NCBI GenBank assembly: GCA_030727405.1
Contig: JANRBR010000031.1
Span: 17,182 to 61,862, forward strand
Length of the DNA stretch: 44,681 nt
Reading direction: 5' to 3'
From: Crocinitomicaceae bacterium
GTDB lineage: Bacteria; Bacteroidota; Bacteroidia; Flavobacteriales_D; Crocinitomicaceae
Part shown: piece by piece, positions 5,774-32,514 of the stretch
How positions within the stretch are numbered: position 1 is the stretch's first letter
Layout of the letters: the number at the start of each line of letters is the position of its first letter
Notes under the pieces: generated by a model
Told to the model about the DNA's origin: nothing
The model's input: the letters and a program-made list of their open reading frames with translations, nothing else
Database searches by the model: none
Position numbers and translations under genes: made by a program

Positions 5774-7174
5774 ATGACTGAAAAACAACGCACGCTAAAA
5801 GAAGCAATTGTTTTTAATGGTGTAGGACTTCACACAGGCGAAGCTGTCACCATGGAAATTTGTCCAGCTAATGATAACCACGGATACAAATTTCAACGAG
5901 TTGATTTAGAAAATCAACCAATCATCAAAGCGGATGTCGATTTCGTAGTTGCTACAGATCGCGGCACAACCCTGGAACAACATGGCGCTCGAGTGTATAC
6001 GACAGAACATGTTCTTGCAGCGTTATATGCTTGTCAAGTGGACAACGCGCTCATCAAAATAAATGGTCCAGAAATTCCCATCATGGATGGTAGTTCCATT
6101 CTTTTTGTCAATGAAATTGAACGTATTGGTTATGAGGATCAGTCTGCTGACCGTGAATATTTTGAATTAAATGAGAATATTCCGTGGGAAGACCTAGAGA
6201 AAGGAATTGAGTTCTTAGCGATTCCGGATATTAATTACCGATTAACGGTCATGGTGGACTATAATTCGCCAGTGCTTGGTACCCAGCATGCAAGCATGTA
6301 CCAACTGAAAGACTTCAAAAAAGAAATTGCTCGCTGTCGAACTTTTGTATTTCTGAGAGAACTGGAATATTTGGCGACGAATAACCTCATCAAAGGTGGT
6401 GATTTGGATAATGCCATTGTTTTAGTGGATCGACCAGATGTGAGTCAAGAAGAATTGGACCGACTTGCTAAACTGCTCGGTAAGGATAAATTGCAAATTT
6501 CCATTGATGGTATTGGTGTTTTGAATAGCACTAAATTACAATACGAGAACGAACCAGCTCGACATAAATTATTAGACATTGTTGGTGATTTGGCCTTGGT
6601 AGGAAAACCGATTAAAGCACACATCTTAGCTGCTCGACCAGGACATTCCGGAAACGTACGCTTTGCCAAAGTGTTGAAAGAGCAAATTAAAAAACAACAA
6701 AATCAAGGCAGAATTTTCGATTTATCGAAAGATCCAGTTTATGACATCAATGACATTGAACGAATTCTCCCGCATCGATACCCCTTTTTAATGGTGGATA
6801 AGATCATGGAAATTCATGAAAACTCAATCATCGGAGTGAAAAACATCACCATGAACGAACCACAGTTTACGGGACATTTCCCTGGTAACCCGGTGTTTCC
6901 CGGAGTTCTTCAAATTGAAGCTATGGCGCAAGTTGGTGGGATTTTCGCCCTGACAAAAGTAGAAGACCCACATTTATATTCGACTTATTTCATGAAAATT
7001 GACAACGTTCGATTCAAACAAAAAGTCATGCCAGGAGATACCGTAGTTTTCGAATTGGAATTAACATCGCCCATCCGAAGAGGTTTAGTTGAAATGAGCG
7101 GAAAAGCTTTTGTGAATGGAAAAGTTGTTTCCGAAGCAAGCATGCTCGCACAAATAATTAAAGACAAAGAATAA
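5774..7174 (+). CDS. lpxC/fabZ: Fused UDP-3-O-acyl-GlcNAc deacetylase / 3-hydroxyacyl-ACP dehydratase (LpxC-FabZ)
   Basis: A 466-residue bifunctional protein. Residues 1-305 are LpxC, the zinc deacetylase for the committed step of lipid A synthesis: Glu78 and His79 in TTEHVL, His264 and Asp268 in HKLLDIVGD, and catalytic His291 in ARPGHSGNVRF. Residues about 320-466 are FabZ, the hot-dog-fold dehydratase of fatty acid elongation: ILPHRYPFLMVDKI, then His368 in GHFPGNPVFPG and Glu382. The fusion is typical of Bacteroidota. It joins the two enzymes that compete for 3-hydroxyacyl-ACP-derived flux, so one chain may balance lipid A against phospholipid. lpxA begins on the base after its stop codon. 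Confidence 0.97.
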   Translation: MTEKQRTLKEAIVFNGVGLHTGEAVTMEICPANDNHGYKFQRVDLENQPIIKADVDFVVATDRGTTLEQHGARVYTTEHVLAALYACQVDNALIKINGPEIPIMDGSSILFVNEIERIGYEDQSADREYFELNENIPWEDLEKGIEFLAIPDINYRLTVMVDYNSPVLGTQHASMYQLKDFKKEIARCRTFVFLRELEYLATNNLIKGGDLDNAIVLVDRPDVSQEELDRLAKLLGKDKLQISIDGIGVLNSTKLQYENEPARHKLLDIVGDLALVGKPIKAHILAARPGHSGNVRFAKVLKEQIKKQQNQGRIFDLSKDPVYDINDIERILPHRYPFLMVDKIMEIHENSIIGVKNITMNEPQFTGHFPGNPVFPGVLQIEAMAQVGGIFALTKVEDPHLYSTYFMKIDNVRFKQKVMPGDTVVFELELTSPIRRGLVEMSGKAFVNGKVVSEASMLAQIIKDKE

Positions 7175-7951
7175 ATGATTTCATCCTTAGCTTCGGTTTC
7201 GAAAGATGCCCAAATTGGACAAAACGTCCGAATTGATCCCTTTGCCGTCATTCACGAAGATGTCATCATCGGGAATGGAACCCGAATTCATTCGAACGTC
7301 GCATTGTATCCTGGAACACGCATCGGCGAAGACTGCGAAGTCTTTCCTGGTGCTGTATTGGGCGTAATACCACAAGATCTAAAATTCGACAATGAATACA
7401 CGACTGTTGAAATTGGGAATAACACCAAAATTCGAGAGTGCGTGACCATTCATCGTGGAACGAGCGACAAAATGAAAACGGCTGTTGGAGACAATTGTTT
7501 ACTCATGACCTATGTTCACGTTGCGCACGATTGTCAAATTGGAAACAACGTAATTTTAGCAAGTTACACCGGGCTTTCTGGTCATGTAATCATTGATGAT
7601 TTCGCCATACTTGAAGGCAAAGTAGCTGCACAACAATTTGCACACATTGGTAAACACGCTTTTATCGGAGGAGCATCGTTGATTCGAAAAGATGTACCGC
7701 CTTACATCAAAGCGGCACGTGAACCACTAACCTTTGCTGGAGTCAATTCGGTTGGACTGAGAAGAAGAGGTTATTCAGATGAACAAGTTAGGGAAATAGA
7801 AGACATTTACCGAACGCTTTACGTTCAAAATAGCAACATTTCAAAAGGCTGTGAAGCTGTTCTTCAAAGCATGGATAAAACACCCCTTCGGGATGAAATC
7901 ATTGGTTTCATACAGTCGTCCGATAAAGGAGTAATTCGAGGGATGATTTAA
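7175..7951 (+). CDS. lpxA: UDP-N-acetylglucosamine O-acyltransferase LpxA
   Basis: A 258-residue first enzyme of lipid A synthesis, which transfers a 3-hydroxyacyl chain from ACP to UDP-GlcNAc. A hexapeptide-repeat beta-helix covers about residues 1-190, followed by a helical C-terminal part starting GLRRRGYS. The catalytic-base position is His118 in HVAHDC. The conserved HQF segment of most LpxA proteins reads AAQQF (Gln153 in place of His). The ATG directly follows the lpxC-fabZ TAA with no gap, suggesting translational coupling. rlmD begins 1 base after its stop. Confidence 0.95.
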   Translation: MISSLASVSKDAQIGQNVRIDPFAVIHEDVIIGNGTRIHSNVALYPGTRIGEDCEVFPGAVLGVIPQDLKFDNEYTTVEIGNNTKIRECVTIHRGTSDKMKTAVGDNCLLMTYVHVAHDCQIGNNVILASYTGLSGHVIIDDFAILEGKVAAQQFAHIGKHAFIGGASLIRKDVPPYIKAAREPLTFAGVNSVGLRRRGYSDEQVREIEDIYRTLYVQNSNISKGCEAVLQSMDKTPLRDEIIGFIQSSDKGVIRGMI

Positions 7952-7952
7952 G

Positions 7953-9380
7953 ATGAAGAGAGGTGATGAAATTTCCGTTGAAATAACGGATTATGCTTTT
8001 GGAGGAAGAGGAATTGCAAAATTAGAAACGGAACACGGTCAATTCGTTGTTTTTGTAGACAATACTTTCCCAGGTCAAACCGTACGCGTTCGCATTGAAA
8101 CAAAACGCAAAAATTACGCGGAAGCAAAATTGATGGAAGTTGAAAAACGCTCCGAATTTGAAACCGAAGTAAGGTTTCAAGAAATCTCTGGCGGACCATA
8201 TATCCATGTTCCTGTTGAAAAACAGGAAGAAGTGAAACAAGAATCCACCCTGACAACTTTTGAACGATTGAGTGGAATACCAAACATACGTTCACACTTT
8301 GATGCCTTCATATCCTCTCCAAAGCACTATTTCTACCGCAATAAGATGGAATATAGTTTCTCGTGCATCGAACATGATTTGGATACGAACGAAGAATTAG
8401 ACGACGCCTTTGCATTAGGATTTAAACGCAGAGGGACTTGGTGGAAAGTAGAAAGCCTGAATAAAGCCTCTGGAATGTTCGATGAAGAGTGGGAAACCAA
8501 ACTTCGCGACATTCGTTTATACCTAAAAGCAACTGATTTACCCGCGTGGCATCCGCCAAAAAAGACAGGCTTCTTTCGCCACATTGTCGTGAGAAAATCC
8601 TTTCACACGAATCAACTTTTAATCAACCTGGTGACTTCATCAGATGAGAAAAAACAATTTAATGTTGCTGATTTTGCCTCTTTTTTGCAAAACCTCTTAC
8701 CGGGACGTATTGCTGGACTCTGGCACACCGAAAATGACAACGTAGCCGATCGAGCTAAAATTGAAAATGGTTCATCTAAACTCATTTTTGGTCAAGAAGT
8801 GATTGAAGAGGTGCTTTCCGGATTAACGTTTCAAATTTCCATGGAGAGTTTCTTTCAAACGAATCCTGCATGTGCAGAACTGCTTTATGCCAAAGCGTTG
8901 GATTATGTGTTCGAAGAAGAAATTCCAGCCGAAAAAGTGGTGATGGATTTATTTTGTGGAACAGGAACAATCGGACAATTACTTGCCAAAAGAAATGATG
9001 CTGTGCGCATTGTTGGAGTAGATATCATTGAGAAAGCAATTGAAGACGCAAGGGAAAACGCCTTAAAAAACGGCATTCATAGCATTGATTTTTACGCAGC
9101 AGATGTTGGAAAATTCCTGAAAGAATATCCGCATTACCAAGGAAATATTTCGTGCATCGTTTTGGATCCTCCAAGAGCCGGAATCGCACCAAAAACGCTT
9201 CAAAAAGTCATCGATCTTGGCGCAAAACACATCGTTTACATTTCGTGTAACCCATCTACCCAAGCGCGCGATGCAAACACCTTAAACGAAGCGGGGTATA
9301 TACTAGAAAAATATGCGCTAGCAGATCAATTTCCTCATACGGGACACATCGAGTCGATTGCCAAATTTGTCCGCAAATGA
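7953..9380 (+). CDS. rlmD: 23S rRNA (uracil-C5)-methyltransferase, RlmD/TrmA family
   Basis: A 475-residue SAM-dependent RNA m5U methyltransferase. Residues 1-65 form a TRAM RNA-binding domain. The methyltransferase core holds FFQTNP near 300, the SAM motif DLFCGTGTIG near 332, DPPRAG near 405, and catalytic nucleophile Cys432 in YISCNPS. The iron-sulfur cysteines of E. coli RlmD are absent: the region aligned with CGGC reads ISGGPYIHV (about 78-85), and the fourth Cys near 172 is also missing. It could be an RlmD or an RlmCD-type enzyme; the target uridine is inferred. It lies between lpxA and cinA and overlaps cinA by 4 bases. Confidence 0.87.
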   Translation: MKRGDEISVEITDYAFGGRGIAKLETEHGQFVVFVDNTFPGQTVRVRIETKRKNYAEAKLMEVEKRSEFETEVRFQEISGGPYIHVPVEKQEEVKQESTLTTFERLSGIPNIRSHFDAFISSPKHYFYRNKMEYSFSCIEHDLDTNEELDDAFALGFKRRGTWWKVESLNKASGMFDEEWETKLRDIRLYLKATDLPAWHPPKKTGFFRHIVVRKSFHTNQLLINLVTSSDEKKQFNVADFASFLQNLLPGRIAGLWHTENDNVADRAKIENGSSKLIFGQEVIEEVLSGLTFQISMESFFQTNPACAELLYAKALDYVFEEEIPAEKVVMDLFCGTGTIGQLLAKRNDAVRIVGVDIIEKAIEDARENALKNGIHSIDFYAADVGKFLKEYPHYQGNISCIVLDPPRAGIAPKTLQKVIDLGAKHIVYISCNPSTQARDANTLNEAGYILEKYALADQFPHTGHIESIAKFVRK

Positions 9381-22495: not shown

Positions 22496-24227
22496 TCGAG
22501 GAAGATTTAGTCAATAAAAATTGTGGTTTTTTGAAATTTCGAATGGTCACATGAACAGAAAACAATAACTCATCGCGTGCAATCAAGAGGTCACAAGCTT
22601 CCAAATTACTAAGTCCATACAACATTCCTTCTAACATGGATTGATCAACACGGTAGGCATTGCAACCAATGATTTCATCTCCGACACTAATTCCTGCTTC
22701 TTCGGCACTAGAACCGAATCGAACAGACTTCACCATCACTTTCCCTCCTTCTTCTCTAAAAGAAGCTCCAAAAGATGGATTATTAGTGCTAACATCTTGA
22801 ACCGATAATCCTACCGGAGCATAAAATTCTTTGTAGGGGATGATCTCTGTTCCATCCACGTATTTAAGAAAGAACTCATCCATGTTTTTACCCATAAATT
22901 TGGCAAGTTCCTTTTTAAATTCAGCCTCAGAAAATCCACGTTTTAATCCTTCGTAATAGGTTTTGTACAGCTGTTGCATGAAATGATCCAAACATTTTTT
23001 TCCGTCCGATTCCGCAACAATCATTGCATCAATCACAGATGCCAAAACGGATCCTCTTGAGTAATAGGTCATCGAAGTATTCGAACTATTCTCATTTGGA
23101 CGATAAGCCTTCACCCATGCATCAAAACTTGCATGAGCGACAGGTTGAACGCGTGACCCAGGTGTTCCTTCTACGTAATTAATGGAAGATTGTAGCTTGG
23201 CTAAAAAAGTTTCTTCCGAATAAAAACCAGTTCGACGAAGAATCAATTCGTCGTAATAGGAAGTAAATCCTTCCATTACCCAAAGCAAACTAGTATAATT
23301 CTCTTCATCGTAATTGAAGGGACCTAATTCAATTGGACGAATGCGTTTTACGTTCCACAAATGAAAGTATTCGTGAGCGACCAAATTCAAGAAATTAACG
23401 TATTGTTGACCGGCATATGTCCACCGATTGACGCTTAGTACACACGAATTCATGTGTTCCAAACCTCCTTGTCCATCCACGACATTATGTACGATGAACG
23501 TATAATTTTTATTCGGGTTTATTCCAAAAACAGCTGTTTCCGCTTCGACAATTTTCGCCATGTCACGTTTTAAGTCATTGACATCGTAATTCGCTTCACC
23601 ATACATGGCAACAGTATGCGTAACACCAGCAGAGGTGAACTCAAAAATTTCTTGGTTTCCAATTTCCAATGGGCAGTCGACGAGCTGGTCATAATTTTCA
23701 AATAAAAACCGCTGTCCATTAGACTTGTCCGTTTCGGCAAAAGGAAGTGAAGTGGAAATTCGCTTAAACGATTCATGTGGAAAAACAGTTAAGGTTCCAG
23801 ATTGATTTTTTGCTTTATCCACATACATAAAGATCCCTGATCCACTTACAAATCCATGACTTAGATCCAAAAATGGCGTACGAACAGAGACTTCAAAAGA
23901 ATACACTTCGTATTTCACTTGGATATTTTTCTCTGATCCAGCATCTATGACCCATGCATTTTTTGATTTTTTAGACACTTTAAGTGCTTTTCCATCTTTT
24001 GTAAAAGCCTTCACCAAATTGATGTTTTTCGAAAACTCACGCACCAAATAGGAACCTGGAGCCCAAACGGGAAGTTTGACTTCCACTTGTTTATCGCTGT
24101 TTTCAGAGATGTTCATTTGAACCTCGAAATAGTGATTTTGTGGCTTTGGCATTCGTAGTTCATACGAAACGTTCATCCCAAATGTAAACATGGGAATGAA
24201 AAGGGTTATAAACAGTAATTTTTTCAT
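22464..24227 (-). CDS. M61-family metallopeptidase with PDZ domain
   Basis: A 587-residue exported zinc peptidase of the glycyl-aminopeptidase (M61) family. A signal peptide covers about 1-17. The N-terminal beta domain (20-200) includes [17 protein letters not shown]. The catalytic domain has GLEHMNS near 255, HEYFH (His285, Glu286, His289) and the third ligand Glu319 in [17 protein letters not shown] domain at about 475-565 contains [16 protein letters not shown]. The family prefers N-terminal Gly or Ala; the natural substrates here are unknown. It overlaps purT by 4 bases upstream and the BNR gene by 32 bases downstream. Confidence 0.92.
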
Positions 24228-25384
24228 CTAATTTGAATTTTTGCAGCCGTTAATTTTGCTTTTTCGACCAAATCTTGAACAGAATCTGTGCCAAACGTTA
24301 AGGCAACGGCCATTCGCCGATAAGGTCTTGTCGTTGGTTTACCGAAAATACGCACTTCCGTGTTTTCTTGACTCAATGCCTCAGAAACGCCTTCGTAAAC
24401 AGGTGTTTTATCAGAAGAATCATGGGCTAGAATAACCGCACTTGCTCCGTTTTGCAAGTGTTCGATTTTTGGAATTGGCAATCCAAGCACCGCACGTGCA
24501 TGCAGCTCAAATTCACTTAAATTTTGAGTACCTGCAAGCGTAACCATACCTGTATCGTGAGGACGAGGGGATAATTCAGAAAAATAAGCCCCTTCTTTGG
24601 TAATGAAAAACTCGACACCCCATATTCCTGCTCCACCGAGCGCTGAAGTCACTTTAGATGCCATTTCTTGCGCTTCCGTTAAGTGTGCAGAATTCATCGG
24701 CATAGGTTGCCAACTTTCTTGGTAGTCTCCACGTTCTTGACGGTGACCTATTGGCGGACAAAATAAGGTAGGACCATTCTTTTGAGTCACCGTTAAAAGC
24801 GTGATTTCGTAATCAAAATCAATGAATCCCTCTACAATGACCTCTTTTAGATCTCCCCGAGAACCTTCCATCGCATAATCCCATGCTTTTTGAATGTCTT
24901 CTGAGTTTTTAATCACCGATTGTCCTTTGCCAGAACTCGACATCAATGGCTTTACAACGCAAGGCATTCCACAGACTTCTACACCTGCAACCAATTCTTC
25001 GTAACTTGTTGCATAACGGTATGTCGCTGTTCGGACTCCTAAATCTTTTGCCGCTAAATCACGTATTGCTTTTCGATTCATGGTGAAATTTGCCGCTTTC
25101 GCACTAGGCACTACTTGAATTCCTTTTGATTCATAATCATAAAACCGCTCCGTGCGAATTGCTTCAATTTCAGGAACAATCAAATCAGGTTGGTGCTTCG
25201 CTACGATTCGATCAAGTTCACCCCCATCGAGCATGTTGATGACTTCGCAAGCATCCGCAACCTGCATGGCTGGAGCACCAGCATAACTATCTACTGCAAT
25301 GACGTGTTGTCCATAACGTTGACAAGCAATCACAAATTCTTTTCCGAGTTCTCCCGAACCCAATAGTAGGATCTTTTTATTCAT
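24224..25384 (-). CDS. purT: Formate-dependent phosphoribosylglycinamide formyltransferase PurT
   Basis: A 386-residue ATP-grasp enzyme that makes formyl-GAR from GAR, formate and ATP in purine synthesis, a folate-independent alternative to PurN. The N terminus has [10 protein letters not shown]. Substrate-contact segments are [15 protein letters not shown] and [15 protein letters not shown], and the ATP-grasp metal site is in [17 protein letters not shown]. The frame runs open to 25639, but the first 85 residues of that reading are not PurT-like and cover the divergent promoters, so ATG 25384 is used. It heads the minus-strand gene run to 18.2 kb. PurK is excluded by the PurT-specific motifs. 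Confidence 0.95.
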
Positions 25385-25388
25385 AGAG

Positions 25389-25420
25389 CAAAAGTAGTGA
25401 AACAAGAAAAACTTTTCAAA
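25389..25420 (-). promoter_or_regulatory. Bacteroidota-type promoter of purT
   Basis: On the minus strand TTTG (25420-25417), 20 bases, then TACTTTTG (25396-25389), matching both -33 and -7 consensus elements at normal spacing. The box ends 4 bases before the purT ATG, so the message is probably leaderless. Confidence 0.75.
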
Positions 25421-25480
25421 GTATAAACGAGGATTCCAAACATATGACATCCTATGATACATAAGGAAAGCAAATTTTGT

Positions 25481-25488
25481 TAACTTTG
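25481..25488 (+). promoter_or_regulatory. -7 box upstream of the VTC-domain gene
   Basis: TAACTTTG, an exact match, ends 11 bases before the ATG at 25500. No -33 TTG is at normal spacing. It is divergent from the purT promoter, with the two -7 boxes about 85 bases apart. Confidence 0.55.
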
Positions 25489-25499
25489 GCTTAACATCT

Positions 25500-26258
25500 A
25501 TGAACGAAATCAACGATTTACTGACTCCATTTGAGCCCATTACATTAAAGGAAATGGACCGTGTCAAGTTGATGAATCGCATGGACACAAAGTTTGCCTT
25601 TCGAACAAGTGACCTGAGTAAACTCTTACCATTGCTCACGGAACATTACCGTGTATTGACGATAGAAGGGACAAATATGCCACATTACGAAAGCCTCTAT
25701 TTCGATGACGAACGATTTTCTTTTTTTAAAGATCATCACAACGGGAAAGGTGACCGCTTTAAAGTGCGCATTCGTAAATATGTAGAATCCAATCTTTTCT
25801 TTTTAGAAATCAAACATAAAATCAAAGGACGAACTGACAAAAAACGCATTGTTACGGATCAATTCAATGAGGTTTTACCTGAAAGTGACCTCGCTTTTGT
25901 TCAAAACGAACTGCATTCTAATAAAAATTTGGTTCCCACCATGTGGAATTCATTTCAACGAATTACCCTTGTTTCAAAAACGGAGAACGAACGATTAACC
26001 CTCGACTTCAACATCCTTTTTGAAAAAGACGGAATAAAAAAATCTTTCAATAAATTGGTGATTGCCGAGTTGAAACAAGAAGACTTAAACCGCAATTCCG
26101 CATTTTACCAAGTAATGAAAGGACACCAAATTCGACCTTATCGACTCAGTAAATATTGCCTTGGTTCAGTGGAAATTTACGGTGAAGACAAATTAAAATT
26201 CAATCGTTTTAAGAAAAAATTACTTTATTTAAAAAAAATAAATCATGATGCTATTTAA
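25500..26258 (+). CDS. VTC-domain protein (putative polyphosphate polymerase)
   Basis: A 252-residue soluble protein matching the VTC/triphosphate-tunnel-metalloenzyme fold. Visible features are [11 protein letters not shown] near residue 25, YESLYFDDE near 63, the basic strand [10 protein letters not shown] (Arg86, Lys88, Arg90, Arg92), LEIKHKIKG with Glu103 and Lys105, a late acidic IAELKQE (Glu190) and RLSKYC near 215. In yeast Vtc4 this fold makes polyphosphate from ATP inside a basic tunnel. Bacterial members are named polyphosphate polymerase domain proteins, mostly without biochemical proof. The next gene, a DUF4956 membrane protein, overlaps by 14 bases, a pairing seen in many bacteria. 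No ppk or ppx is in the window. Confidence 0.82.
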
Positions 26259-26919
26259 TTCTCTTTTACTTCCTTTAAAGAAAGCGGCCGTTTCAGGATC
26301 TGCACTATCTTGGTTCAGTGATGATTTTTATGTTTTGCTGATCCGTCTGGGAATAAACATGCTGTTTCTTACCATTTTGATTCGTTTTCTATACTACCCT
26401 AAAACACAACGAAAAGATTATTTATTCACCTATTATTTGATCGGAACTATCACATTTTTCTTGTGTTTTGGCTTGATGCAAATGGACATTGACACAGGAA
26501 TGGGCTTGGGATTATTTGCCATTTTCGGAATCATCCGTTACCGTACCGATGCGATAGAAATAAAAGAAATGACCTACTTATTCATGATCATTGGGATAAG
26601 TGTGGTGAACGCTTTAGCATCGAATGAATTAAGTATTTCGGAGGTGGGAGTTATTAATGTTTCCGTTGTTTTGTTAACGTTTATTTTGGAGAACCTTTGG
26701 TTGATGAAACACGAAACCCGCAAAACAATCAACTATGAGCGCATTGATTTAATTACTCCTGAAAAATATGACGAAATGAAAGCAGACCTAGAAAAACGAA
26801 CGGGGCTTTCCATCAACCGTGTTGAAATCGGGAAAATTGATTTCTTAAATGACACCGCTCAAATTCGCATTTTTTATTTTGCCAACGATCAAGCTTTTTC
26901 AGATTATCACAATCAATAA
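26245..26919 (+). CDS. DUF4956 integral membrane protein
   Basis: A 224-residue membrane protein with about four or five hydrophobic helices (near 28-50, 59-78, 84-98, 109-125 and 133-150) and a soluble C-terminal domain of about 70 residues. The conserved core GLGLFAIFGIIRYRTDAIEI joins helices three and four and is the hallmark of DUF4956. The gene overlaps the VTC-domain gene by 14 bases, so the two products very likely act together. By analogy with eukaryotic VTC, where a membrane part moves the nascent chain, it may be a channel or anchor; this is inference. ATG ATG at the start makes 26248 an equally possible initiation site. Confidence 0.8.
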   Translation: MMLFNSLLLPLKKAAVSGSALSWFSDDFYVLLIRLGINMLFLTILIRFLYYPKTQRKDYLFTYYLIGTITFFLCFGLMQMDIDTGMGLGLFAIFGIIRYRTDAIEIKEMTYLFMIIGISVVNALASNELSISEVGVINVSVVLLTFILENLWLMKHETRKTINYERIDLITPEKYDEMKADLEKRTGLSINRVEIGKIDFLNDTAQIRIFYFANDQAFSDYHNQ

Positions 26920-26923
26920 AGCG

Positions 26924-26931
26924 TATCTTTG
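26924..26931 (+). promoter_or_regulatory. -7 box upstream of lpxK
   Basis: TATCTTTG, an exact TAnnTTTG match, ends 3 bases before ATG 26935. The in-frame TTG at 26929 is the last part of this box and is therefore not taken as the start codon. Confidence 0.6.
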
Positions 26932-26934
26932 AGC

Positions 26935-27951
26935 ATGAGAAAAATCGCTCTACTTCCTTTTACGATTTTATACTGGCTCATCACATTTACTAGGAATGTC
27001 CTGTTTGACGTTGGCATCCTGAAATCATTCAAGATACCTGGCAAATCTATTTCTGTAGGGAATTTATCTATTGGAGGATCTGGAAAGACACCAATGGTCC
27101 AATATTTAACAAGGCTTTTACAGGAAGAATATTCCATTCAAATTCTCAGCAGGGGCTACGGCAGATCATCCAAAGGATTTCGACAAGTAACGAAATTGGA
27201 CAATGCGCAAACCGTGGGTGATGAACCACTTACCTACTTTGAGAAATTTTCAGAAAAAGTTTCCATTTTTGTCTGTGAAAAACGACTTGAAGGCGTACTT
27301 AAAATGAAAGCCATCCATTCAGGGGCAACAATTATCCTGGACGATGCCTTCCAACATCGCTATGTTACCCCTGGTCTACAATTAATACTTACGCCCTTTC
27401 ACGATCAATTCATTCGCGATTGGCACTTACCTTCAGGTAATCTGAGGGAAGCAAAAGAAGGAGCGAACCGCGCTGACGCCATTATCATTACAAAATGTCC
27501 AAAACTCACAGAAGATGAGCGAGAACATCACCGTAAAAACTACGAAGCGTATCAAAAACCCCTCTTTTTTTCAACCATAGAATACGGAGAATTTCAAGCC
27601 ATAGGCTTGCCAATTCAAGAAATGAAGAACATATTATTGGTCAGTGGAATTTCATCCAGTACTTCATTGAAAAACCACTTAATGGAAAAGCATCACGTGG
27701 AGGAGCTGAAGTTTGGTGACCATCATTCGTTTACACCTACCGACATCAAGGAAATTCACAGAAAATTTGATACCTTTGCAGACAAGGAAATGTCCATTGT
27801 GACAACGGAAAAAGACTTGGTGAAAATCAATGAGCTACTTTCCGAAGAAGACAAAAAGCACTATCCTTGGTACGTTCTTCCGATTACAGTGAAAATGGAG
27901 GACGAACAAGCGTTTAATTCGATGATAAAAGATTATGTTAGAAGCAATTAA
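26935..27951 (+). CDS. lpxK: Tetraacyldisaccharide 4'-kinase LpxK
   Basis: A 338-residue membrane-associated kinase that phosphorylates the 4' position of the lipid A precursor. An N-terminal hydrophobic/amphipathic segment (5-25) docks it to the inner membrane. The Walker A motif is SVGNLSIGGSGKTPMV near residue 42, followed by LSRGYGR and DDAFQHR, typical of LpxK. The ATG at 26935 is preferred because the upstream TTG lies in the promoter box. It overlaps the PNP gene by 17 bases. With lpxD, lpxC, lpxA and lpxH it supplies a large part of the lipid A pathway in this window. Confidence 0.95.
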   Translation: MRKIALLPFTILYWLITFTRNVLFDVGILKSFKIPGKSISVGNLSIGGSGKTPMVQYLTRLLQEEYSIQILSRGYGRSSKGFRQVTKLDNAQTVGDEPLTYFEKFSEKVSIFVCEKRLEGVLKMKAIHSGATIILDDAFQHRYVTPGLQLILTPFHDQFIRDWHLPSGNLREAKEGANRADAIIITKCPKLTEDEREHHRKNYEAYQKPLFFSTIEYGEFQAIGLPIQEMKNILLVSGISSSTSLKNHLMEKHHVEELKFGDHHSFTPTDIKEIHRKFDTFADKEMSIVTTEKDLVKINELLSEEDKKHYPWYVLPITVKMEDEQAFNSMIKDYVRSN

Positions 27952-28752: not shown

Positions 28753-30207
28753 ATGGAAGAATCCATTCGCGATAAGTACGAAGTAGTCATAGGATTGGAA
28801 GTCCATGCTCAAATGTTGACTAAAACCAAAGCCTATTCAAACGACGTCAATGAATACGGTGCGGCTCCTAACTCCAACATTAGTGTTGTGACACTTGGAC
28901 ATCCAGGAACATTGCCTGTGATGAATAAGAAAACCATCGAATTTGCCATTAAACTTGGACTTGCATGTGATGCACATATAGCACCTGCGCAACATTTTGC
29001 TCGGAAAAACTATTTTTATCCTGACTTGCCGAAAGGGTATCAAATCACACAAGACACCACGCCCATTTGTACGGGTGGACACATCATCGTCCGAACAGAT
29101 GATGGCAGTGAAAAATCCATTGGTTTGACTCGAATTCACATGGAAGAAGATGCCGGAAAGAGCATTCACGACGTAGACGTTTACGATACATTGGTCGATT
29201 TAAATCGCGCCGGCACTCCCCTATTGGAAATCGTTTCTGAACCAGACATTCGCTCATCGGTTGAAGCATATAACTATTTAACGGAAGTCCGCAAACTCGT
29301 TCGATACCTAGATATTTGTGATGGAAACATGGAAGAAGGATCCTTGAGATGTGATGCCAATATTTCCGTTCGCTTGAAAGGCGTTTCAGAGTTTGGAACA
29401 AAGGTGGAGGTGAAAAACATGAACTCCATACGAAATGTACAACGCGCGATCGAATTTGAAATTATACGTCAAATTGAAGTCCTTGAAAATGGAGGTTCAC
29501 TTTCCCAAGAAACAAGGGCATTCGATGCCTTAAAAGGAATCACCATTTCCATGCGATCAAAAGAAGCGGCGAACGATTACCGTTATTTTCCAGAGCCTGA
29601 TCTACCACCGATTAGCATCACGAAGGAGCAAATTGACTTGGTCTCCAAGGACATGCCTGCATTGCCTCGTGTGTTGTTTAAACGTTATACTTCCGAATTT
29701 GGATTGTCTGAATACGATGCTTATAACATAACTGACAACAAAGGAATTGCCTTGTACTATGAAAGCATTTTAACTCATACTAAGAATTACAAAGCAGCAG
29801 CAAATTGGTTGATGGGAGATGTAAAATCCTATTTGAATGAATTTGGAATTGAAATGGAAAAATTCCCGATTAAACCACTAACGATTGCTCAATTAATTCA
29901 CTTGGTTGAAGAAGGAAAAGTTTCCAATTCCGTCGCTTCTCAAAACATTTTTCCTGCGTTAATTGAATCGGATGAAAGTCCTTTGCAAATCGCAGAACGC
30001 CTCAACTTGATTCAAAATTCAGACGAAGATGCCTTGAAAGGTTTCATTTTAAATGTTTTTGAATTAAATCCGGATGAAGTAGCACGATACAAAGCAGGTG
30101 AAAAACAACTCACTGGTTTTTTCATGGGACAATTAATGAAAGTTTCACAAGGCAAAGCCGATCCAAAATTGGCAAATGGATTATTAAGACAAATGCTTGA
30201 CGCATGA
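28753..30207 (+). CDS. gatB: Asp/Glu-tRNA amidotransferase subunit B
   Basis: A 484-residue kinase-like subunit of the GatCAB complex, which converts Glu-tRNA(Gln) or Asp-tRNA(Asn) to the amide form. The N terminus is EVVIGLEVHAQML; ARKNYFYPDLPKGYQITQ, HMEEDAGKSIHD, DLNRAGTPLLEIVSEPD and EVKNMNSIRNVQ are diagnostic. A helical YqeY-like tail at about 335-484 binds the tRNA. The zinc-binding cysteines of some GatB proteins are absent near residue 30 (AYSNDVNEYG), as in other zinc-free members. gatA and gatC are elsewhere. It overlaps the following TlpA-like gene by 4 bases. Confidence 0.97.
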   Translation: MEESIRDKYEVVIGLEVHAQMLTKTKAYSNDVNEYGAAPNSNISVVTLGHPGTLPVMNKKTIEFAIKLGLACDAHIAPAQHFARKNYFYPDLPKGYQITQDTTPICTGGHIIVRTDDGSEKSIGLTRIHMEEDAGKSIHDVDVYDTLVDLNRAGTPLLEIVSEPDIRSSVEAYNYLTEVRKLVRYLDICDGNMEEGSLRCDANISVRLKGVSEFGTKVEVKNMNSIRNVQRAIEFEIIRQIEVLENGGSLSQETRAFDALKGITISMRSKEAANDYRYFPEPDLPPISITKEQIDLVSKDMPALPRVLFKRYTSEFGLSEYDAYNITDNKGIALYYESILTHTKNYKAAANWLMGDVKSYLNEFGIEMEKFPIKPLTIAQLIHLVEEGKVSNSVASQNIFPALIESDESPLQIAERLNLIQNSDEDALKGFILNVFELNPDEVARYKAGEKQLTGFFMGQLMKVSQGKADPKLANGLLRQMLDA

Positions 30208-31400
30208 AAGATTGGATGAAAAAATATAAAATGTGGTTGTACATTGGGTTGTTTGCCTCCATCCTTGGTGGCATCATCTTGTACAACAAAAGCCAAAAGG
30301 ATTCTGCTGAATTAAATGGATTGGAAGCAAATTTTTCAGTGAAAGGAACCATTAAAGATGCTGACGGATTAATGTTATATGTGGAAGCACCAAGTGACAA
30401 AGGAACGATTCCAGTGGCCGAATGTGAAATTGACTCGGATGGCTCCTTTGAAATCATCGGAAATATTCCTGGATTAGGATACTATTTCCTAAGGTTGGGA
30501 AATGAACAAAACAGCCTCATTCCCATCACCCTAAGACCAGAGGATCACTTGAAAATTAATACTACGGTTGCGACCTTTGTTTCTGAACCAAATGCTTCTG
30601 GAACCGATTGGAGTAGCACCATGAATAGTTATCTGAAGGAATTCAATCGCTTTCAAAAGGCCCAAGAGAAACTTCAAATGAATGCCGAGAATCGAAGCAA
30701 GGAGGAAGTGTCAAAATTATTCTTGAACGAGAAGCGCAAAATGGAAGCTTTTTCTCGTGCACGCATGATCAAAAATCCGAGCAATGCCTACAACATTATT
30801 CTTTCCATGGATTTGCTTCCGAGCATGAGTTTTGAAGATTGGGATGCCAGTAACTTGGAAACTTTGCGCAGCGTTGCAGAAGCATTTGAAGAAAAATACA
30901 TCGGTCAACCGGCAGCAGAAACGTTTCGAAATCAATATGAGCAAATTGAGATCGCCTACTATGATTATTCTTCCACCTTGAATGGTACGCGAGCCGCTCC
31001 AGAAATTGCCTTGCCGAATCCAGATGGAAAGGTGTTGAAATTATCGGATTTAAAAGGAAAGGTCGTATTAATTGACTTCTGGGCCTCATGGTGTGGACCT
31101 TGTCGTGCAGAAAATCCCAATGTGGTGCGATTATATGAGAAATATAAAAACAAAGGTTTTACCGTGTTCTCTGTTTCCCTGGATGATGAAAAAAGTAAGT
31201 GGAAAGATGCCATCCGAAAAGATAATTTAAGTTGGCCGACGCATGTAAGTGATTTGAAAGGTTGGAAATCCCCGGTGGTAACATCCTATGGCTTCGATGG
31301 AATCCCTTTCACTGTATTAGTAAATAAAGAAGGGAAAATGATCGGAAAAAACCTTCGTGATCTGAAATTAGAAGAAAAATTAAACGAGTTATTCAAGTAA
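30204..31400 (+). CDS. TlpA-family thiol-disulfide oxidoreductase with DUF4369-like domain (copy 1)
   Basis: A 398-residue envelope protein. The N-terminal hydrophobic helix (10-27) has no clear cleavage site, so it is probably an inner-membrane anchor. A DUF4369-like beta domain (45-125) and a helical linker precede a TlpA/AhpC-type thioredoxin domain (about 263-398) with FWASWCGPC (Cys297, Cys300) and cis-proline in GIPFTVLV. Such proteins reduce or repair disulfides in the periplasm, for example in cytochrome c maturation; the client is unknown. It sits one base before a paralog with the same layout. ATGA overlap with gatB. Confidence 0.85.
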   Translation: MKDWMKKYKMWLYIGLFASILGGIILYNKSQKDSAELNGLEANFSVKGTIKDADGLMLYVEAPSDKGTIPVAECEIDSDGSFEIIGNIPGLGYYFLRLGNEQNSLIPITLRPEDHLKINTTVATFVSEPNASGTDWSSTMNSYLKEFNRFQKAQEKLQMNAENRSKEEVSKLFLNEKRKMEAFSRARMIKNPSNAYNIILSMDLLPSMSFEDWDASNLETLRSVAEAFEEKYIGQPAAETFRNQYEQIEIAYYDYSSTLNGTRAAPEIALPNPDGKVLKLSDLKGKVVLIDFWASWCGPCRAENPNVVRLYEKYKNKGFTVFSVSLDDEKSKWKDAIRKDNLSWPTHVSDLKGWKSPVVTSYGFDGIPFTVLVNKEGKMIGKNLRDLKLEEKLNELFK

Positions 31401-31401
31401 C

Positions 31402-32514
31402 ATGAAAAAAGGAATTTTTATTTTACTTTTCGCTTTGCCATCCGCTTTGTTTGCTCAAAAAACAATCAACGCAACCGTTTCGGGAATGATATTCAATGCG
31501 AAAGTAGATTCTGTGTACCTGTCTCAATTCTTCGGTACGTATTACAAAAATTATGCAGGAACTCCATTGGATAAAAAAGGAGTCTTCCAAATGGAACTCA
31601 GTTTACCTGCCTCAGATTATTACTATTTACGCGTAGGAAATGAAAACATCCATTTGATTTTGAAAAATGGAAGCGATATTAAAGTGTATGGAGATGGAAG
31701 TAAGCTAGGTGATTTCTGTAATTTTGTTGGATCGGATGAATCAAAGGCGATGAACGATTTTTCGCACGTTTCGGACAAGTGGAAGGCCAAAAGCGATTCA
31801 GCGGTTCGCGCCATCCAAACGGACCCTAGTCGAGAAAAGATTATCAATGATTACATGACACAAGAATTTTACAAATTCAATAGTGAACTACAAGGTTTCA
31901 TTGGTGCCAATCCGAATTCTCCAGCGCTCATACTTGCTCTTGCCAACATGAACGCACAACAAGACCCGAAAACCTATGAAAACGTTCTGAATCAACTATA
32001 TTCTGTTTTCAGTGAGAGTCCGACCGTTCAAGCATTTTATTCCAATTTTAATGATTTAAAGAAGCAGGTAGAAGACGCTCAATTGCTTTCTCCGGGTAAA
32101 ATGGCACCAGAGTTTTCTGAATTAAATACGGATCGAAAAAAATCATTGAAACTCTCTGATCTTCGTGGCCAAATTGTTTTAATCGATTTCTGGGCTTCCT
32201 GGTGCGGACCTTGTCGTAAGGAAAATCCAAATGTGGTAAAAACTTATGAGAACTATAAAAAAGATGGATTCACTATTGTCAGTGTATCATTGGATACCGA
32301 TGCACAAAAATGGATGAAAGCGATCGAACAAGATCAACTTAGTTGGCCAAATCACGTGAGTGACTTGGGTGGATGGAATAGCAAAGTAGCTCAATTGTAC
32401 CAGGTGACAAGCGTGCCATTTACGGTGCTTATTGATCGAGAAGGAAGGGTGATAAAAACGAATTTAAGAGGTCCAGCACTCGAAGAAGAACTTAAACGCA
32501 TTTTTGGTCATTAA
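31402..32514 (+). CDS. TlpA-family thiol-disulfide oxidoreductase with DUF4369-like domain (copy 2)
   Basis: A 370-residue paralog of the preceding gene. It has a cleavable-looking signal peptide (1-18, ending SALFAQ) instead of a membrane anchor, a DUF4369-like region (20-110), a helical linker, and a thioredoxin domain from about 232 with FWASWCGPC (Cys268, Cys271) and cis-proline in SVPFTVLI. The two C-terminal domains match closely (VLIDFWASWCGPCR, ENPNVV, LSWPNHVSDL), so they arose by duplication and then took different tethering. The stop overlaps the lpxH start as TAATG. Confidence 0.85.
   Translation: MKKGIFILLFALPSALFAQKTINATVSGMIFNAKVDSVYLSQFFGTYYKNYAGTPLDKKGVFQMELSLPASDYYYLRVGNENIHLILKNGSDIKVYGDGSKLGDFCNFVGSDESKAMNDFSHVSDKWKAKSDSAVRAIQTDPSREKIINDYMTQEFYKFNSELQGFIGANPNSPALILALANMNAQQDPKTYENVLNQLYSVFSESPTVQAFYSNFNDLKKQVEDAQLLSPGKMAPEFSELNTDRKKSLKLSDLRGQIVLIDFWASWCGPCRKENPNVVKTYENYKKDGFTIVSVSLDTDAQKWMKAIEQDQLSWPNHVSDLGGWNSKVAQLYQVTSVPFTVLIDREGRVIKTNLRGPALEEELKRIFGH

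Follow-up and report, generated by a model that had tools for sequence, protein, structure and literature searches.

The window, by which we mean the whole analysed stretch of 44,681 nucleotides, belongs to a genome of 2.23 Mb in 42 contigs (99.75% complete), whose closest named relatives are metagenome bins of the Crocinitomicaceae and Flavobacteriales, with VTC identities of up to 91%. Two genes are found in succession at the locus, encoding a VTC-domain protein and a DUF4956 protein (Table 1; the coordinates of both reading frames include the stop codons). The overlap of the two genes and the positions of both frames were as the earlier note on this DNA had given them, and both products scored above the respective Pfam cut-offs. 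In a Pfam scan with E values up to 1, PF09359 was the only match of the first protein, in which no SPX domain was found, and PF16316 the only match of the second. No NCBIfam model matched either protein, and no tandem repeats were found at the locus.

Table 1. Coordinates of the VTC and DUF4956 genes and of their main features, given as positions in the window (A1, A2, A9 and A10 are the alignments described in the text).
Feature	Position	Strand	Remarks
VTC-domain protein, 252 aa	25500..26258	+	PF09359, 98.6 bits (cut-off 23); triphosphate-tunnel fold; putative polyphosphate polymerase; short-type class
Basic strand R86-K88-R90-R92 of VTC	25755..25775	+	R86, K88 and R90 47/47, R92 46/47 (A1); all four 71/71 (A10)
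E190 and K192 of VTC (= Vtc4 E426, K428)	26067..26075	+	E190: 46 E and 1 D of 47 (A1), 71/71 (A10); K192: 46/47 (A1), 71/71 (A10)
K218 of VTC (= Vtc4 Lys458)	26151..26153	+	47/47 (A1), 71/71 (A10)
Overlap of the VTC and DUF4956 reading frames, 14 nt	26245..26258	+	
DUF4956 protein, 224 aa	26245..26919	+	PF16316, 191.2 bits (cut-off 30.6)
R98-Y99-R100 of DUF4956	26536..26544	+	both Arg 57/57 (A2); 67 and 66 of 68 (A9), the rest Lys
C-terminal strand-helix-strand-strand, ACT-like domain of DUF4956	26713..26880	+	from the secondary structure of the model

The gene pair is followed on the same strand by an lpxK frame (26929-27951), which starts 9 nt 3' of DUF4956. For 20 of the 80 named loci the stretch that was fetched also holds an LpxK homologue, and these loci are all among the closer relatives (L113-L144). 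On the other side, the purT frame as listed (24224-25639, minus strand) has a GTG start inside the VTC gene; since the purT models cover this frame only from residue 85-89 onward, the true start of purT is probably the ATG near 25384, with purT and VTC divergent. Further downstream (30204-32514, plus strand), two neighbouring genes belonging to one cluster have the look of TlpA-type thioredoxin-fold proteins, a label given from the sequence.

The occurrence of the two families was analyzed in 277 Bacteroidota genomes. VTC was detected in 47 genomes and DUF4956 in 73, including all 47 of the former, as compared with 26 of the 230 genomes without VTC (Fisher p 1e-34, calculated per genome with no kinship correction). 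The VTC genomes are spread over 35 of 131 genera, and among 14 control genomes the same three matched both families. In 50 of the 53 VTC loci that have a DUF4956 gene on their contig, this gene lay within 1000 nt of VTC, while in the other three it was found 2.7-2.9 kb away with genes between. Similarly, in 75 of the 80 named loci DUF4956 was located directly downstream of VTC on the same strand, and most of these 75 pairs overlap, typically by 1 to 41 nt. Four of the five exceptions (L120, L183, L188 and L192) lie at or near a contig end, and the fifth, L158, is a true exception. The recurrent pairing that the earlier note had claimed is thereby borne out at the level of both genomes and loci. 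Phage records contained no DUF4956 match.

The VTC proteins fall into two classes, according to whether the match spans 594-612 nt (short-type) or at least 654 nt (long-type); one gene cut by the start of its contig (G022:C91) was placed in the long class by hand, and one fragment with no DUF4956 on its contig (G022:C160) was dropped. The division is mirrored in the partner: DUF4956 scored 153-205 bits in all 19 short-type loci and 39-70 bits in all 34 long-type loci, and class swaps between the two proteins were observed in none of the 53 loci, including those of family f7, which holds both classes. The VTC and DUF4956 distance matrices, compared over 123 pairs without L091 and L095, gave a correlation of 0.948 (0.645 for the short class taken alone and 0.948 for the long class), part of which reflects shared species history; the best of 500 permutations reached 0.174. 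VTC and DUF4956 are a real, widespread, tight and co-evolving pair.

Residue conservation in the VTC protein was assessed in two alignments. A1 comprises 47 of the 54 VTC matches in the 277 genomes searched (G011, G135, G019:C11, G019:C20, G254:C18 and two partial G022 copies are omitted), and A10 comprises 71 close relatives, namely the window and 70 of the 80 named loci. Ten residues of the window protein align with residues of yeast Vtc4: K31 (K200), R90 (R264), R92 (R266), K105 (K281), K114 (K294), R154 (R361), R165 (R373), E190 (E426), K192 (K428) and K218 (K458). All ten were invariant in the 71 sequences of A10, and each was retained in at least 45 of the 47 sequences of A1, the equivalents of K200, R264, R266, K281, R361, E426 and K458 in at least 46. 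The basic residues, whose conservation in homologs had been proposed as a check, are therefore kept in close and wider relatives alike. Among the residues which the earlier note had singled out, Lys105 is invariant (47/47 in A1), and the late acidic position is E190. The basic strand Arg86/Lys88/Arg90/Arg92 is conserved as claimed, but only in part as a feature shared with Vtc4: R86 and K88 stand opposite Ala260 and Ala262 of the yeast protein in the alignment and are thus not common to it. The Vtc4 variant R264A/R266A/E426N is reported to be catalytically impaired (PMC9911596), and the invariant glutamate is described as a metal ligand (PMC4641920), its match to E426 being taken from our own alignment.

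In all sequences of both alignments (47/47 and 71/71) an acid, D or E, occupies position 29, two residues ahead of the tunnel lysine; yeast Vtc4 has Thr198 there. Acids near this position are what we take to be a mark of hydrolase-type tunnel enzymes. In the hydrolase-type acidic patch, which was placed by spacing, as an inferred position, and with AtTTM3 Glu90 left unplaced among its four positions, R27 and K192 are basic and position 29 is D or E throughout. The tunnel hydrolase AtTTM3 carries Glu2 and Glu4 near the region of position 29, the exact alignment being inferred (PMC4641920). Owing to this acidic position and the nearby hydrolase glutamates, a polymerase reading, although likely, is not secure.

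The AlphaFold model of the VTC protein (pLDDT 94.8) matched the Vtc4 structure 3g3r best among PDB entries (E 8.5e-13, TM 0.65), and the top 13 matches were all VTC subunits, placed before YgiF and other tunnel enzymes. These matches include the non-catalytic Vtc2 and Vtc3, so that the fold alone does not demonstrate catalysis. Single-sequence comparison of the window proteins with the PDB gave no match; the VTC family profile recovered Vtc4 at E 4.9e-20. Taken together, residue conservation and the predicted fold support the presence of a Vtc4-like active core in the VTC protein.

The model of the DUF4956 protein (pLDDT 84.1) contains five long helices, at residues 26-50, 58-79, 84-101, 106-124 and 131-155, in agreement with the earlier description of a membrane protein of four to five helices bearing the DUF4956 signature. 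That description did not include the C-terminal strand-helix-strand-strand domain. In a Foldseek search with this model the ACT domains of aspartate kinase were listed, none of them significantly, and no solved structure, channels included, gave a significant match (best of any kind, E 0.097). Lysine and arginine residues are concentrated in the stretches 47-57, 98-107 and 151-164 (mean 3.9, 3.1 and 2.7, versus 1.5, 1.0 and 1.2 in the other loops), a distribution which predicts an N-out, C-in topology. With this orientation, R98 and R100 are predicted to lie at the cytoplasmic mouth, at the end of helix 3. Both arginines are conserved in alignment A2 (57 sequences of both classes) and, save for lysine replacements, in A9 (68 sequences, from the window and 67 of the 75 named loci).

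The kinship of DUF4956 was examined by profile comparison. The long-type profile resembles the MgtC/SapB family (PF02308) along 191 columns, which take in the C-terminal domain (hhalign 97.6%, E 3.7e-12), and the MgtC Pfam model matched three long-type DUF4956 proteins, identified by coordinates, at 25.6, 21.2 and 21.1 bits, all below the cut-off of 31.4. The window protein itself did not match PF02308 in the Pfam scan, and no direct similarity to MgtC was detected with the profile of its short-type class. The MgtC link of this class therefore runs via the long class, with which it compares at 94.2%; controls against the unrelated membrane family DUF6580 gave 0.2%. Profile comparison and the structural model identify DUF4956 as distantly related to MgtC and as bearing an ACT-like tail. 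We know of no demonstration of a pore in the MgtC family.

The earlier note had proposed the same division of labour as in eukaryotic VTC, in which a catalytic tunnel domain is coupled to a membrane part. The membrane helices of eukaryotic Vtc belong to what we take to be the DUF202 family. A relationship of DUF4956 to DUF202 was rejected, the hhalign probabilities against bacterial DUF202 being 0.9% and 2.2%. No DUF202 gene was found in the genome of the window. Of 61 genomes examined, the 15 with VTC all lacked DUF202, and 13 of the 46 others had it. Three of the control genomes have VTC, however, and one of these, that of Corynebacterium glutamicum, carries DUF202 as well; it also gave matches to DUF4956, CotH and PPK2, and none to PPK1. 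The proposed equivalence is thus not supported for the membrane component, which is unrelated to that of the eukaryotic complex and related to MgtC instead.

The genes surrounding the pair were grouped into clusters for 75 of 76 stretches, the remaining one (L108) containing neither gene. Gene calls around the loci were mechanical (longest non-overlapping frames) and are wrong in GC-rich loci. In 29 of the 34 long-type loci a gene for a periplasmic adaptor (membrane fusion protein) was found no more than two genes away (21 from cluster c3 and 8 from cluster c2). The identity of these adaptors follows from HlyD Pfam matches in c2 members, from the similarity of c3 to c2 (98.9%) and from the occurrence of AcrA, MacA and EmrA among the PDB matches of c3. 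In 14 of the 19 short-type loci the pair was accompanied by an outer-membrane barrel cluster, in which all four members scanned matched DUF2490; this cluster also occurs near the pair in 32 of the 80 named loci. DUF2490 is present in 95 of the 277 genomes, mostly in the taxonomic class of the window, and its co-occurrence at the genome level is therefore uninformative. One locus (L070) carries CotH, DUF4956, HlyD, a TolC-type OEP and VTC consecutively in this order. In the window, as in the single congener fetched (L042), none of the adaptor, barrel and CotH genes is adjacent to the pair, and lpxK lies downstream instead.

DUF4956 occurs without VTC in 26 of the 277 genomes, and 22 such loci were fetched (all but those of G038, G100, G163 and G222). 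In 14 of them (L052, L058-L068, L110 and L111) DUF4956 is followed by an adaptor, and in one (L054) an OEP was observed. One VTC genome has a second DUF4956 gene (L069), after which a phosphate-selective-porin-like gene and CotH follow in that order. In other phyla, 4 of the 16 plasmid records with a VTC match were examined, the fourth of which has no gene table. The other three carry CotH-VTC-DUF4956 (Deinococcus), DUF4956-VTC-phytase-like (Aminobacter) and DUF4956-VTC-phosphate transporter-phytase-like (Nitratireductor). These neighbours make the pair part of a wider complement of envelope genes in relatives, and suggest a product that is directed to the cell surface.

Several other arrangements were observed around the loci. 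In L082, L087 and L088, an alpha-amylase with starch-binding modules lies 5' of adaptor-VTC-DUF4956 (L088 was scanned, the others assigned by cluster). In L076, L077, L090 and L091, the pair stands beside a cluster whose Pfam matches, as scanned in L077, are SdiA-regulated and phytase-like, which recalls the phytase-like genes on the alphaproteobacterial plasmids. Among the VTC-less loci, L049 and L050 carry a short-type DUF4956 gene, after which comes one for a protein that may be CotH-like; in L049, which was scanned, a calcineurin-like phosphoesterase that weakly matches purple acid phosphatase comes after DUF4956 as well. In L053, L055, L056 and L057, all of genus g7, a MORN-repeat protein precedes a 185-aa DUF4956 with no VTC (L053 scanned, the others by cluster). 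Cluster c7, a 410-aa protein after the adaptor in 13 loci, may be a TolC-type protein (probability 29%), and cluster c34 may be CotH-like (48%). A suspected fusion of VTC to another domain in G135 was discarded: the frame of 757-778 aa (L024, L095) is a GC-rich open frame, the N-terminal part of which matched no local profile.

CotH matches (E up to 0.001) were detected in 46 of the 47 VTC genomes versus 56 of the 230 others, counted per genome with no kinship correction. G238 was the only VTC genome lacking CotH, and the control genome of Bacteroides ihuae has a VTC match and no CotH match. In at least 13 of the 53 Bacteroidota VTC loci, from coordinates read by eye, CotH lies within 3.5 kb of VTC. 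The genome of the window contains five CotH matches, none beside the pair; in a stretch elsewhere in this genome (L108, G000:C17), a CotH gene (6690-8111, plus strand) is flanked on both sides by alpha-amylase-like genes, beyond which SusC-like and SusD-like genes occur, these labels being taken from the translations. According to a hydropathy rule, 37 of the 43 proteins that belong to cluster c4 or match its profile have a signal-like N-terminus. The 27 longer c4-profile matches in the named loci include 18 with CotH, 21 with a secretion tail and at least 12 with both, the profile also picking up proteins that share the secretion tail alone. In view of these N-termini and tails, many of the CotH kinases are probably located outside the cytoplasm.

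Polyphosphate synthesis in bacteria is usually ascribed to PPK1 and PPK2 (PMC8776046). PPK1 was found in 249 of the 277 genomes and, from a list read by eye, in 45 of the 47 VTC genomes, G134 and G078 being the only ones without it. The comparison of genomes with and without ppk, which the earlier note had suggested, thus indicates that VTC is mostly additional to PPK1, and a role of VTC as its replacement is unsupported. The genome of the window likewise contains PPK1 and Ppx-type genes, while PPK2 was not found in it. Together, these observations argue for a separate pool of polyphosphate rather than a substitute synthase.

The reading we place first, though we would give it somewhat less than an even chance, is that the pair constitutes an inner-membrane polyphosphate synthase, whose product is destined for the cell envelope rather than for a cytosolic store. 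VTC would act in the cytoplasm as a Vtc4-like tunnel enzyme, transferring the gamma-phosphate of ATP to a phosphate chain at the inner face of the membrane and docking on the five-helix, MgtC-like DUF4956, the ACT-like tail of which would probably sense a ligand and gate the activity. The two invariant DUF4956 arginines at the cytoplasmic mouth would take up the polyanion and pass it to the periplasm. Beyond the membrane, the partners would depend on the lineage, namely an adaptor with or without a TolC-type channel in the long class and a DUF2490 barrel in the short class. Exported CotH kinases and phytase-like proteins would also handle the chain there, and the chain, or a product of it, would be used in the envelope. 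Of the parts, docking of VTC on DUF4956 is highly probable and polymerase activity of VTC probable, while passage of polyphosphate through the membrane has somewhat less than an even chance. The acidic position 29, the lack of a significant match of DUF4956 to solved structures, the action of Salmonella MgtC through PhoR, the absence of adaptor, barrel and CotH genes beside the pair of the window, the control Bacteroides ihuae with VTC and no CotH, and the SIR_1593 deletion in Streptococcus intermedius, described below, all weigh against this envelope synthase.

Nearly as likely as the envelope synthase, and a possibility to be taken seriously, is an anchored and regulated synthase that leaves its polyphosphate in the cytosol, with DUF4956 serving as an MgtC-like regulator or anchor that has an ACT-like sensor and no pore. 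The MgtC homology and the ACT-like tail point in this direction, as do the failure of DUF4956 to match a solved channel significantly and the report that MgtC of Salmonella works through the binding of PhoR (PMC6658541). An export role is suggested, conversely, by the adaptor or barrel gene that accompanies the majority of pairs in other lineages and by the 14 VTC-less loci in which DUF4956 precedes an adaptor; moreover, nearly all VTC genomes already possess PPK1, the usual synthase.

We regard it as unlikely that VTC is no polymerase at all but a tunnel phosphotransferase or hydrolase, which would act on another (poly)phosphate and tune exopolysaccharide or CotH-dependent surface assembly. 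The Vtc4 residue Lys458 is described as catalytic, while its counterpart in the hydrolase AtTTM3 is reported to be of little effect (PMC4641920), and the equivalent K218 is invariant in the VTC proteins; the position of AtTTM3 Glu171, aligned from E169 (= E426), is basic in this family (K192). The presence of an acid at position 29 in every sequence would nevertheless fit such an activity, as would a fold that is common to hydrolases and cyclases, the altered Pel amount and aggregation ascribed to the streptococcal cassette (PMC12345266), and AtTTM3 itself, for which no polymerisation is reported despite a similar tunnel centre (PMC4641920).

It is improbable, in our estimate, that the pair exports polyphosphate via the adaptor and outer-membrane route as a phosphoryl donor, or donor store, for surface or periplasmic CotH kinases, which would sit where ATP is scarce; if true, this would account for CotH in 46 of the 47 VTC genomes and for the phytase-like and phosphate-transporter neighbours. 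The notion that the two genes came together by chance, as members of an unremarkable operon with lpxK and purine nucleoside phosphorylase, draws on the closeness of lpxK and its recurrence in named loci and is refuted by the pairing across phyla, lpxK being variable and DUF4956 constant (75 of 80 loci, 47 of 47 genomes and three annotated plasmid loci), which leaves it a negligible probability.

If the envelope synthase is real, it would represent a second, compartment-directed pathway of bacterial polyphosphate synthesis, in which a membrane-bound Vtc4-like polymerase coexists with PPK1 within envelope gene sets, and a possible source of phosphate for kinases outside the cytoplasm. The analysis also takes DUF4956 out of the 'unknown' by its kinship to MgtC and its defined partner, and shows the cassette of CotH, polymerase and DUF4956 to be independent of Pel.

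Some earlier reports touch on these families. A clostridial locus listed in 2010 contains CotH and two VTC genes, and behind each of the latter lies a gene for a membrane protein of 222-226 aa (PMC2879425); from their size we would guess that these membrane proteins are DUF4956. In Bacteroides thetaiotaomicron, adjacent genes of DUF4956 and DUF2490 are both listed in a table of the iron response (PMC10434189). CotH is listed in a stalk gene set, with no polyphosphate (PMC8250860), and the 'VTC' of another report is a different domain (PMC6514570). The earlier note had considered polyphosphate synthesis by the bacterial pair largely unproven; consistent with this, no assay of a bacterial VTC protein was found in the accessible text of the open-access literature, subscription papers and preprints lying outside the scope of the search.

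Compared with the tunnel domain of yeast Vtc4 (PDB 3g3q/3g3r, 8i6v and 7ytj), the bacterial protein is alike in fold and in catalytic residues, including those equivalent to Lys458, Glu426, Arg264 and Arg266. In contrast to Vtc4, it has no SPX domain, bears an acid at position 29 and the invariant R86 and K88, and is partnered by DUF4956 instead of DUF202 helices. The closest bacterial counterpart is the Gram-positive Pel accessory cassette (SIR_1594-1592), which as described consists of the same protein families as here (PMC12345266; PMC7112168). In streptococci, clostridia and bifidobacteria, cotH, the polyphosphate polymerase gene and DUF4956 are reported to adjoin Pel genes (PMC7112168), and the MgtC domain of four membrane segments and the ACT tail of the streptococcal DUF4956-like protein are already in print (PMC12345266). 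In S. intermedius, loss of the DUF4956-like SIR_1592 or of the CotH gene is reported to alter the amount of Pel and reduce aggregation, and the available account describes no aggregation defect upon deletion of the VTC gene SIR_1593 (PMC12345266).

The analyses described in the same 2025 paper did not find the three-gene synteny outside Pel (PMC12345266). Unlike the Gram-positive cassette, the Bacteroidota and Deinococcus loci of CotH, VTC and DUF4956 lie outside Pel. PelG was detected above the cut-off in none of the 47 VTC genomes, sub-cut-off partial matches in G055 and G135 being on other contigs than VTC, and the genome of the window gave no PelG match. Each family by itself was known before, as was the cassette of Gram-positive bacteria; the present analysis adds the near-obligate pairing in two classes, the association with adaptors and barrels, and the presence of these genes outside Pel.
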